Source of the DNA: Campylorhamphus procurvoides
Taxonomy: Eukaryota > Chordata > Aves > Passeriformes > Dendrocolaptidae
Reading direction: 5' to 3'
Length of the DNA stretch: 64,000 bases
Assembly: GCA_013396655.1 (NCBI GenBank)
Contig: WBMV01008568.1
Coordinates: 1,655,329 to 1,719,328 of the forward strand
Part shown: one piece after another, positions 22,501 through 31,500 of the stretch
How the letters are laid out: each line of letters opens with the position of its first letter
Position numbering within the stretch: the first letter of the stretch is position 1
Position numbers and translations under genes: made by a program
Notes under the pieces: generated by a model
Databases searched by the model: none
What the model was told of the DNA's origin: nothing
Seen by the model: the letters and a program-made list of their open reading frames with translations, nothing else

Positions 22501-25500
22501 CCTGCTGCCTCTGAATGCTCCCGCTCTAAAAACTCTCCTGTTCATTACATTATCTTTTAATGAAATCTTAAGTACAGGCTTCTACTTTGTTCCCTTCCTT
22601 GTTGCTTCGAGGCTAAGAAGCAGCAGCATTACCTCTTCTTAAAAGCAAATAAGACTTGCAGAGTGGCTTGAGTTGGAAGGGACCTTAAAGATCATGTAGT
22701 TCCAACCCCCCTGCCATGAGAAGGCACACCGTCCACTAGACCATGTTGCTTAAAGCTTTATCCAGCCTGGCCTTTGAACATTTCCAGGGATGGGGCATCC
22801 ACCACTTCTCTGTGCAGCCTGTTCCAGTACCTTACCATCCTCATGGTAAAGAATTTCTTCCTAATACCTGATCTAAACCTACTCTCTTTCAGTTTGAAGC
22901 CATTCCCCCTTGTTCTATCACTACATGCGCATGGCAAAAAGTCCCTCTCCAACTTCTGTTGCAGCTCCCTTCAGGTACTGGAAAGCTGCAATTAGGTTGC
23001 CCTGAAGCCTTCTCTTCTCCAGGCTGAACAGTCCCAACTCTTATGTTGTGTTACCTGGAGGCTTTCTTATCTGTTTGTCTTCCTAGTGTGGGGAGAAAGA
23101 ATGTGCAGAACAAGCTTTTGAGTCTAGATGCAAGATCCTGTTAGCTCTTTGAATGCTGGTGAATTGGGATGGAGCTTTTGGCTTCTAGAGTTGAATACTT
23201 AGTTTAACGTTTGTTCTTAAAACCACCCAAATATTTACTGAAAAGTTTTGGCCTTTCCTCCACTATATGTTAACTGATAAAAGGGTCTCTTTTTTTAACA
23301 CCTGTTTTACCATTCATTCTCTTACAATGTCACATGGTACCTATTCTCTAATCAGCATGATAGTTCTATTTACAATTTGCCGTTTTGAAAAAGGTCAATT
23401 TATTCGTGTGCTGCTGCACACCAAACATTTTCTTTAATGTCTGTTAAATACATGACAGATAAGCTCTTAATTTTTACTTGTAGAAGTTATTTTAGTTACT
23501 TCATCCACTAAGGCATTAATTATGTTTCTTATTAAGTAGGAAAAAAGAAAGAAAAAAGAAATGAAGATTCTAATGCTTTTGAATTCTTGTTCAAGAAGAT
23601 CTGTTCCTCCAAATATATTTTTCAATACTGTCATCTTTAATCCCAAAATGTAAGGAGTATCTGGATACAGGGTGTGGGTGAACCATTGAACATATGTGAT
23701 TGTGGAGTGCATTTTGAGTGTCTGCAGTTCTCTGTCCTTGGTACTTATCTTTCAGCCTAGAAATTCTGCAACCGATTTAAACATTTTGTTCTTCTGAGCT
23801 ATCTCTGTGGTTAGGCAATTTTTCCCAATGTCTAGCTAGCTAGAAAGCTTTAAATTGTGAGGACCTTCTAGCATTATGCATTTTTCTTCTGGCAAACTTT
23901 GTGCTTCAAAGACTTCAAACAGCTGAACAGAATTTCATTTCTACTTTTCTTCATCTTCATAAATTTTATGTCTTTTAGATCTAGGCTCTTATTGTCATCA
24001 ACACTTGGACTTCAATTTCTGTTCTTAACTCATGAAAAACAGAGATGCTCCCTATTCTTCATATTGCTAGAGGGCTATTGCGAGACGTTATTTAAGGATT
24101 CATGGTTACTGATGTTTGAATGGTTGGAAAAATCTTCTTATGCATGCATGCATGCATGCATACACACAGCACATTGTACATCATTCATTTAAGATTGAAG
24201 AAAGAATTTTAGACTGTGAACTGATGTGAGTTTTTTTCAGATGCAACTGTTTGTGCAAACTGCTGAAAATGTTTTTTTAAATTTTTTTTCCTTACTTCTT
24301 GAGTCTTGAGATAAAACCTGGTATATTTTGTGTGGGTATGTTTTATCTAAAAAGTTCTACAGACAAATGTTAGAGGTTTATCATCTTTAACAATAAAATA
24401 GTCAGGAGAAGCTGTGAAGACAGAATAGGAATTCTTTTCTACTGGCAAGTTTGAATTCTAAGTTGGTTGCCCTCAGTTTTTGTGTAAACACGCAATTCCA
24501 GTTTTATTCGTCATGTTCCTGAAAGTTAGTGAGATGTGAGAGCCACGTAGTGGATAAACTTAAGTATCAAACACAGTATCAAGAATTTTTTTTTCTTCAG
24601 CAAAATGGGCTGTGAGAAGAATGTTTAGGTACTTTTCACTTGAACAGGACAGGTTTGGCAAAGATTTTTGTTCTTATAGAGAACTGCATGGTTACAAGAT
24701 CTTTTTTAAGACTTCAATCTCTGTTTTCTCAATAGACTTTTTTGGGGATCAGGCTAACATTCACTTCTCCTTACTTGTGGAGGTATGTCCACTGCCTCAT
24801 TCAGCCAGTTTTTTTTTTTTAGATCAACTTAACATGACTGACTTTATGATAAATGCATTACTTATGTCTAATGACTTACATGCATGCAATGGAGTCAGTA
24901 TGTTGAGAGTATCTGAGTACATGTAGGCACATGGGGTGTCAAAAGTAATCTGAGTGATGAGAAGCCCCTTTTTGTGTAATGACTGCCTGAATATCATAGA
25001 TAACTCTTCAGTTTTAAAAATACTTACCCTTAACTTTGTCTTAGTTGTCATTATGGCTCTTGTTTGAGAAGTGAAAAGTTTTCTTGTCCATCTTGGTCTG
25101 AAGACAGATGCTTCCACTGATGATTTCTACAGTTCTTAAATTGTTTTCAGTCTTAAATTTTCATGTTGCCTCATTGATGAAGGCTGTACTTTAAGTGGTG
25201 TTATCTGTTACTAAGGTGCTTCGACATTCTTTGGACAGACTGGGTCTAAGGAACATTGGCATCATCGCTGCGGATGGAGATTGGAACATTTCAAAGGAGA
25301 TGATAGTTGATCCCTATCTTAATGATGCTATTGAGGTAGTCGGGTAAGTGTGGGAGAAGGGAGGAGTTTTAAGCATTGCTTATTGCTTTCTTTCTGTAAG
25401 TCTTCATCTTCATTTTCAAGAGTCGTATATTCTTACTTCATACTTCTTAGCCATTCCGATTTTTTCCATCATCATATACAGTGGTGATGGATTATTCTTT

Positions 25501-28500: not shown

Positions 28501-31500
28501 AAATAGTTGATTGGCAGGGAAAATAGGGGAAGTCAACTCCTGTTCTTAATTAAATGCTTACTGTGATTTTGCAAGATTTATAAATTATAATCCAGTTGTC
28601 CTTGCCCTGTATGGGTTCTTTGTAGCTTAACCATCAACACAGTAATGTGTAAGTGGCTGATCTGCCAATAGAGTATCTTGCATGAAATGTGATATGTTTT
28701 GTATTTATCTGTAGTTTTGTTTCTGTAAGAAAAGAAGAACCAAATGTTTTTAATTTTAACTTTTGTCATGTACTTTGGGATTTGATGTGGTAGAGGATGA
28801 AGGTGTCCTTTTTTGAAGGCACTTTGTGCTTGGCAGTATAGTACATTTTGTTTGTTGCAACAGTTGTCCAACTTGCAAAACCAAGAATTCAAACATTTTT
28901 TTTTTAGCTATGTTCCAATAGTGCTGAAAAAGATGCTGCCTTTCCCAATATAAAGTGTTGACAATTTGAAAACCATTTTTTTTATTTGTCCCTTCTCTCT
29001 GTTCTTTGCCCTCCTTTTTTTTCCAAGCTGTTGAGATACACATTGGATAAGCGTGGTCTGGAGCAGGTGAGGATCATAGCCAGCGATAGACTGTGGGAGC
29101 CCATTTCCTTTGTCTTGCTGATTGACTCTGAGCTCCACGGAGTGGTCGATGTGATTGGGTAGGGGGTTCTCTCTGTTTTCTTTCTTGGTGGTTTGTTTAT
29201 AGTTTGTCTTCATCTTATTTATAACTAACATACCCAAAGCTTTACTTCTCTATACTCTTACCTGCAAGAAAAGGATTGATAGTGTAATCTTTCTTACTAA
29301 CCCACATCAAATCACATGGCTATTGTCCTGGTAACAGCTTTAACCCTTTTGTTGAATTGCGAGTCTTCTATTATATTGAAGATTCCTAGTGGGTGTGGAT
29401 GCGCTTTTGATGAACTGAATGTTTTTTGGACAACCCTGTTTATTCTGGGGGTTGTTTTGGTTACTGTGATCGGTATATAAAAAGTGTTTTAGCTTTACGC
29501 CGTTGTATACAGCCTTGTATTACTGACTTCCATTGGTATGTTACTCAAATGATTGTGATCCAGAAATAAATTTGGGCTGTGATTCTTCTTTGAGTTACAA
29601 TAATGTCTTGATTCTTAGTTCCCATTTTGTTTTGTTGAGAAAGTTGTGTTTGGAAAGTATGCAGCCAGCTGACTTGTTCTTCTAGCTCTAGGTTTTGTCA
29701 TATGATGCTTATATTGTACAAATAGACTAAATTTGAGATTGATTACTGACTTGATGGCTGAATGGAAACATGTGTAAGACTTGCTCATTAACTTTTCATT
29801 TTACAATAGCTATAAATTTTAATTACTAGGTGCCATAAACTTGCCTGACCCAATCACATGCTTCAGATGTGGCAGTTCCTTGTTTAGCTTGAGTCTTTTT
29901 CATCTATCTTTATGTATCTGACCCATAGGAGGTGTAGAAATGAAGACTTTTTCTACAAATACAGATAGGCAGTCAGTGTCATCTGCCTGTGCAATCTTTC
30001 CCCACATTCTGAACATGAACAGTATCTTGGCAGTTTTTTGCAGGTGGAATATTGGGTCATATGTGGATGAAGCTCAACTGTTTTAATATTGTCTATGTAA
30101 GCTGTAGTTGCTTAACTCTTTACAAGTGTAAGTTTTACATCCCTATTCTGATTCAACTTTAACAGGGAGATGAAATACTCTGTTATGTATTTCAGCTTTT
30201 ATTTGGCAGAGATGTTGACACATAATATTAAGAAACACCTTTTCAGGGTATGGAGTGTAGAAAGATAAGATTATTCCTTCTGTGCCTTGTTTTTGCAAGC
30301 AGTGCACTTTATGTCATTACAAAAACATTTGCTTGGTACTAAGATAATAATTAGGTTTCCAAGCCAAGGGGAAATATGCAGTAATCTGTACAGAAGAACA
30401 GAATGAAGGTAAAATACATAGTATCAGTTACATTACCATGAGTGAAGCTCTGTATGAAGGACTACACTGGCCCATTGTCCAGTAGAGGGAAAATAATGAA
30501 AAAACCCTAACAATCAGCCTGGAAAAACTGGTGTTTCTTGTGTCCTTGCCATAAATGTGTCACTTTGTCAAGTTTCAGGGTAATAGTAAAGGAAGTATTT
30601 ATGCTTTCCTTCCCAGTGCTGATAGTTTAATTTTAGTATATGTATTTAGCGTCTTCAATGAATATGCTAAGTGAAGGGAAAATCATGACCCTGTTTTCTG
30701 CAAGTGATTTGAAAGGTTTTATTTCGGTCAGACAAACCTTGCACAGTGAATCAGTGTTGCAATTGAGTATAATCAATAGTCTCCACTGGGAGAAAGTATC
30801 TCTCCTCATACTAAGATCTTGAAAAGAAAATTAGCTTTCATTATATGTTTCAACTACTTTCAGTTTATACCTCTGTAACTTCTATAGTCCAACTAGTATG
30901 CTTTTTTGAAACCCAAGTTTATTAAAAATGGTGTGAAAAATCAGTCAAGTTTATGTTTAGGTCTGCATACATTCATGCAGTTATGTTCTTGGAGTAATAT
31001 CTAGTACTGTATCTTATTGTTGATTTTAAAATTATTTATGGTTTTGATTAAGATACCATGAGTTAGCATATCTTTATTTAGTACATTATAGTTATGAAAA
31101 TCTTCAAGCTCAGTTTCAGGACAGAACTTTGCTTTAACAAGCTGTGGAAATTGCACAGCGTCTTTAAATCTAAGTTTACTTATGTGTTGTCATGTATCAA
31201 AAGAAATAATCTTCTACTGATGCAAATATGATAAGTTCTGGAATGTTATAGCTTGCCCTTGGTCCATTTCCTTCTATTCCACTTGTAGTATTCCAGAGAA
31301 ATTTTGTTTTTCCTTTTCAGTGTGAAGGAAGGGAGTCACTGCTGCTGTACGTACTTCCAAACATTGATTTTTCTCTTTTTATTAAGTTCTCTTTCTTTTT
31401 AAAATATTATGCAGGGCTCACTATCCTGGGACAAAAACAGTGCAAAATGCCTTATTAACTGGGAAGAAACTGTGGTCTTCAGAAGATTACAGTACATTCA

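Follow-up and report, generated by a model that had tools for sequence, protein, structure and literature searches.

The 64,000-nt window of the bird Campylorhamphus procurvoides analysed here (contig WBMV01008568.1, positions 1655329–1719328) holds a single GALC gene on the plus strand. The gene has 17 exons and an additional exon, 7A, located 3.7 kb 5' of the mammalian-type exon 7B. GALC is the lipid-degrading enzyme missing in Krabbe disease, and it is thought of as a single protein. On the strength of the sequence, we consider it probable that 7A and 7B are a working mutually exclusive tandem exon pair, whatever its age; that only one of them is used at a time is what we infer from this genome.

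The exon map was made with the human GALC protein as the probe, and splice sites were then refined by hand. Exons 1–6, 7B and 8–17 aligned to this protein. All features of the pair lie on the plus strand. As the first-pass annotation, made from the letters alone, had claimed, two homologous exons lie 3.7 kb apart: 7A at 25216–25343 (128 nt) and 7B at 29028–29158 (131 nt), with an intron of 3684 nt between them (25344–29027). Both exons are open, are entered in phase 0, are left in phase 2 and are bounded by AG and GT. Their common upstream partner is exon 6 (21919–21957), which encodes the catalytic glutamate of WNER and ends in phase 0. Their common downstream partner is exon 8 (31415–31570), which encodes the catalytic glutamate of SSED. 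The final G of 7A belongs to a codon split with exon 8, and the junction with exon 8 reads VGAHYPG and IGAHYPG for the two exons. The remaining two frames of 7A contain stops. These details were all reproduced as first described.

With 7A or 7B alone the message is open, and the 17 exons other than 7A form a continuous GALC, in agreement with the earlier claim that they match the mammalian gene one to one. The assembled reading frame, stop included, comprises 667 codons with 7A and 668 codons with 7B. Inclusion of 7A and 7B together shifts the frame, and the message meets a stop no more than seven bases into 7B. Omission of both also shifts the frame, with a stop in exon 8. The two exons are thus adjacent homologues of equal phase whose joint use or joint skipping is non-productive, and the mutually exclusive form proposed in the first-pass annotation is well supported by this anatomy. 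Openness alone is weak evidence, since 18 of the 358 comparable AG..GT pairs within the gene (spacing 125, 128 or 131 nt) are open in phase 0, 7A and 7B included; it is the sequence match that counts.

The alignment of 7A and 7B again gave 17 identities over 43 residues with one single-residue gap. The 7A peptide alone matched Pfam GH59 with 26.6 bits (E 4.7e-6), just below the cut-off of 27 bits, and the 7B peptide alone matched with 21.3 bits (E 1.9e-4). When six residues of exon 8 were added (pieces of 49–50 residues), the scores were 37.3 bits for 7A, 32.1 bits for 7B and 41.3 bits for human exon 7. In PDB searches with the whole of exon 8 attached, which adds to both scores, mouse GALC was matched at E 5.6e-33 by 7A and at E 1.7e-42 by 7B. 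A bacteria-only profile built from five relatives was run against the window in six frames and found 7B (E 1.7e-10) and 7A (E 1.6e-9); the next best match had E 0.76. A profile of 7B and the human sequence matched 7A at E 5.1e-7. Single-sequence profiles run in the window recovered 7B from 7A (E 3.6e-5) and 7A from 7B (E 2.1e-5). A further profile, which had 7A and 7B among its own sequences (E 9.6e-20 and 1.1e-20), is circular and was not used as evidence. The assignment of the gene to GALC and GH59 follows from the Pfam GH59 match and the presence of both catalytic glutamates. In the 1.02-Gb assembly, the Pfam search yielded no second GALC locus, with only 5 exons reaching the threshold, and the 7A peptide had two matches, itself and, weakly, 7B (E 0.19). 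No relatives were confirmed in the viral contigs searched.

Codon by codon, 7A and 7B were identical at 20, 33 and 12 of 42 codons at the first, second and third positions, respectively. Third positions were near chance while second positions were kept, as in two copies that both stay coding. The G+C content at third positions was 0.43 in 7A and 0.65 in 7B. We modelled a neutral 7A drifting freely since the duplication. The model is generous to neutrality in that it freezes the second positions of 7B, and it ignores base composition. It was rejected with p 0.0025 at equal neutral rates and with p 0.04 if 7B third positions change twice as fast. Within this one genome, the earlier view of an old duplication kept by selection is supported by this pattern of codon-position identity and, if neutral rates were equal, by the rejection of the model; the figures would also be compatible with a recent death of 7A. 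In a rough neutral simulation of 20000 copies starting from 7A, indels were assumed at 0.1 per substitution and any out-of-frame indel was fatal. At 0.6 substitutions per site, the open frame and AG/GT were kept in 0 of 20000 copies with indels and in 855 of 20000 without. At 0.2 substitutions per site, the copies that still looked intact numbered 712 of 20000 when indels were allowed and 5354 of 20000 when they were not. With 1.9e-9 substitutions per site and year as the rate in birds, 0.6 substitutions per site correspond to approximately 320 million years.

The encoded segment was located on the AlphaFold structure predicted for a bacterial relative of 460 residues (pLDDT 87.0, pTM 0.87), whose best three PDB matches were mouse GALC, with a TM-score of 0.87 by query length. 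Mapping by hand on this model placed the counterpart of exon 7 from the end of helix 4 through strand 5 (188–193) and helix 5 (199–213, in two pieces) to strand 6 (216–220). It sits between the two catalytic glutamates. Because these are encoded by exons 6 and 8, both isoforms keep the catalytic residues. The residue following the tryptophan is E231 in the new numbering and E215 in the old one (numbering checked), and in the bacterial model it maps to what would be the first residue of helix 5. Exon 7B encodes E215 and one extra residue; 7A encodes an asparagine there, within an N-I-S sequon, and the next residue is absent, giving a shorter turn. Asp227 (new human numbering), for which a salt bridge to Lys99 that stabilises the barrel has been described (PMC13187500), is kept in both exons.

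Residue 215 is known from the Krabbe variant E215K, which is secreted, reaches lysosomes and retains activity (PMC4949656, PMC5764952). E215 lies on the surface, away from the active site and adjoining the saposin A site, and E215K has been proposed to disturb the saposin A contact (PMC4949656, PMC5764952). A glycan may be added at the 7A sequon. Its effect could matter, as an unwanted extra glycan elsewhere in GALC (N279T) blocks uptake (PMC4949656).

Splice sites were scored with matrices trained on the gene's other exons (15 other donors in the case of the 7A donor). The 7A donor (25344–25349, CGG/GTAAGT) ranked first of 17: it outscored the 16 remaining real donors and, among GT sites elsewhere in the gene, 1925 of 1925. 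The 7A acceptor (25196–25215, ending in ACTAAG and followed by G) had the bottom score of the 17 acceptors, under all other 16 real ones. The first-pass annotation had noted neither of these extremes. The 7B acceptor ranked 12th of 17 and the 7B donor 15th of 17. Acceptors ending in AAG were present only at 7A (25216) and 7B (29028), 2 of 17, an observation made after the fact. The pyrimidine count before 7A (15 of 25) is unremarkable, since exons 12, 15 and 16 also have 15. Overall, the splice profile of 7A fits an exon with one well-defined end and another that needs help, and fits equally an exon that is losing its acceptor.

Frame loss was the only demonstrable means of enforcing the exclusive use of one exon, because the mechanisms sought at the pair were unsupported. 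The 3684-nt intron between 7A and 7B is too long for simple steric exclusion. No U12-type sites were found at the pair, and the donor of this intron is not of that type. Long intron pairing, for which only perfect complements were sought, gave matches of 12–13 nt, compared with up to 14 nt in shuffles. An Rfam scan of the window gave 0 matches at the gathering score. One TGCATG, an RBFOX-type motif, occurred within 300 nt 3' of 7A; eight motifs were counted, and hence this is no evidence. In human pairs, steric hindrance and U12 sites account for a minority of cases (PMC5740500).

We propose that 7A and 7B are spliced one at a time as homologous tandem exons. Whatever chooses between them, message decay would remove the products with both or neither. 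Exon 7B, with its stronger acceptor and mammalian-type sequence, would be the default. Exon 7A, with the best donor and the weakest acceptor, would need an activator and might be used in some tissue or stage. The two isoforms would share their catalytic residues and differ in the surface where helix 5 begins. In the 7A isoform, the dependence on saposin A or the presentation of lipid would most likely be altered, because E215K leaves GALC folded and trafficked and has been proposed to harm saposin A binding. This role is a weaker inference than the working pair itself.

The first-pass annotation had regarded 7A as an addition to the gene, a view that the bacterial homologues do not support. 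Bacterial GH59 gave 25 distinct full-length or near full-length matches above 240 bits, of which 20 were aligned. The other five were further copies in one genome (G761), and weaker matches (<65 bits, probably GH30-like) were not used. From the tryptophan to the aspartate, 7A shows a spacing of 10 residues, as do 20 of the 20 bacterial sequences aligned; in 7B, human and mouse the spacing is 11 residues. In the bacteria, the tryptophan column holds F or L in 5 of 20 sequences and the aspartate column holds N in 1 of 20. The simplest history would be one insertion on the line of 7B and mammals after 7A had split off; the alternative history is a deletion in 7A that restored the old spacing. In an exon 7 tree with 20 outgroups, the placement of 7A outside 7B and mammals was the best, with a log-likelihood difference of 4.3, and both alternatives had p 0.08 in the AU (approximately unbiased) test. 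Given that 7A is a real exon, we consider it likely that the pair is older than the bird–mammal split. In that case mammals probably lost 7A. Loss is the likelier direction, since the extra residue is on the side of 7B, human and mouse, and the tree tends to put the separation of 7A from 7B earlier than that of birds from mammals.

Several observations weigh against a working pair or against its age. The weak 7A acceptor is the strongest of them: it is level with non-sites, as 1017 of 1930 other AG sites score equal or better. The neutral 7A survives when 7B third positions are given higher rates, with p 0.14 for a threefold and p 0.50 for a fivefold rate. On Pfam GH59, human exon 7 outscores both 7A and 7B in the extended comparison given above. 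The tree is based on approximately 43 residues, and with 20 outgroups it leaves a duplication in the bird lineage at the p value of 0.08. With 5 outgroups the tree was undecided (AU p 0.74, 0.46 and 0.16, with too few replicates). The 7A branch is long, 1.03 against 0.39 for 7B. Identity to the 20 bacterial outgroups was 304 of 858 for 7A, compared with 329 for 7B and 334 for human; with 5 outgroups it was 81 of 212 for 7A, 93 for 7B and 100 for human. Profile scores conflict on this point. A 5-sequence bacterial profile gave 36.0 bits for 7A, 40.3 bits for 7B and 48.7 bits for human, and a 20-sequence profile gave 46.2, 37.2 and 46.5 bits, respectively. A plainly ancestral status of 7A is weakened by the raw identity, and what stands is the indel.

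Among the alternatives, the best placed is that the exon duplicated within the bird or reptile lineage and that 7A changed fast afterwards. Exon 7A would then be a true alternative exon but a novelty, and this explanation overlaps with the working pair preferred here except in age and direction. It draws on the long 7A branch and on the p values of 0.08 with 20 outgroups and 0.46 with 5 outgroups and few replicates. However, 7A is without the residue common to 7B, human and mouse, like all 20 bacteria, and with 20 outgroups the tree favours an earlier split. We therefore consider a bird-line origin possible, if rather unlikely.

Exon 7A might also be dying or recently dead: used at one time, it would by now be recognised seldom if at all, owing to the decay of its acceptor. 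The acceptor score, the lowest of the gene, the AAG ending and the long branch would all be expected from such an exon. The frame, however, is fully open, the donor is the best of the gene, the Pfam GH59 score is above that of 7B, and the 7B acceptor also ends in AAG. Simulated drift leaves a minority of copies intact at 0.2 substitutions per site, so the death would have to be fairly recent. A dead exon thus appears doubtful to us. A poison exon, whose joint inclusion with 7B lowers GALC output irrespective of the protein sequence, would exploit the stop that joint inclusion brings within the first seven bases of 7B. Such an exon would have no need of the kept barrel residues, yet 33 of 42 second positions are common to 7A and 7B and the peptide matches Pfam, which makes this explanation very improbable. 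Chance similarity and an assembly artefact, suggested by the modest 17 of 43 identities taken alone and by the E value of only 0.19 between 7A and 7B in the assembly search, were rejected in view of the bacteria-only profile (E 1.6e-9) and Pfam (E 4.7e-6) matches in the right intron, frame and phase, a 7A–7B divergence too high for an assembly duplicate and the single copy of 7A in the assembly.

The GALC coding region as assembled runs from the first exon 1 residue used to the stop in exon 17 (13382–44511, plus strand). A run of 53 N at 13306–13358, within exon 1 or 5' of it, hides the start codon, which lies inside the run or 5' of it. In exon 5, a 42-nt tandem duplication (19724–19807; 40 of 42 identical) repeats the exon end including its donor. 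Splicing from the second copy of this donor (GTCAGT after 19780) would lengthen the protein by 14 in-frame residues just before the catalytic WNER, and this copy is possibly a recent alternative donor. Head to head with GALC lies an intact, single-frame GPCR gene (3935–4975, minus strand), the best PDB match of which was the psychosine receptor (E 8.6e-109). The GALC product degrades psychosine. Such a neighbour is expected at the GALC locus, since human GALC likewise adjoins the gene of this receptor (GPR65).

Tandem duplicated exons of which only one is spliced in at a time form a class already described, most of it ancient (PMC9741552, PMC5740500), of which PKM has been named as a mutually exclusive example (PMC9741552). 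The GALC pair resembles vertebrate exclusive tandem exons in its neighbouring homologues, equal phases, frame-breaking lengths and conservative changes in a small part of the protein. It differs from them in residing in a lysosomal glycosidase, in that the human and mouse proteins are of the 7B type, and in that exclusive use is here deduced from the exons themselves. The gene is like mammalian GALC (galactocerebrosidase, GH59; PDB 3ZR5, 4CCC, 5NXB) in exons 1–6, 7B and 8–17, in the catalytic glutamates and in the neighbouring psychosine receptor, and differs in the extra exon 7A. Bacterial GH59 shares the fold and, where helix 5 begins, agrees with 7A in its spacing, but is encoded in a single uninterrupted open frame and has a longer loop before the tryptophan.

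GALC was named 0 times in the main text of two surveys of human genes (PMC9741552, PMC5740500). A study of 110 GALC orthologs, birds included, reported 17 exons on average with exon gain and loss, and the one exon duplication reported in the sections available of it was in a bat, towards the N-terminus (PMC12008523). In the same study, human GALC codon 219 was described as very promiscuous and as positively selected (PMC12008523). This codon falls inside exon 7, and it is possible that a mixture of 7A-type and 7B-type gene models inflates its signal. No description of the GALC exon 7 pair was found in the portions of the literature searched. The pair thus looks undescribed, while tandem exclusive exons themselves are already known.

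As a tentative and rather speculative scenario, an early-vertebrate GALC may have had two interchangeable versions of a barrel segment, both of which birds would have kept and one of which mammals would have lost. A glycan of the 7A form at the saposin A docking rim might then have made for a GALC that works without saposin A, or is fed in another way, and serves outside myelin or at a different stage. Mammals, with the saposin-A-bound form alone, would be exposed to Krabbe disease by that single route. If the pair is real, the second natural version of the residue 215 segment would amount to a saposin A rim variant that evolution has already tried out, and a comparison of the isoforms would show which residues couple GALC to its lipid carrier. 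The pair would also be a vertebrate alternative exon lost in mammals and invisible to surveys that start from human genes.

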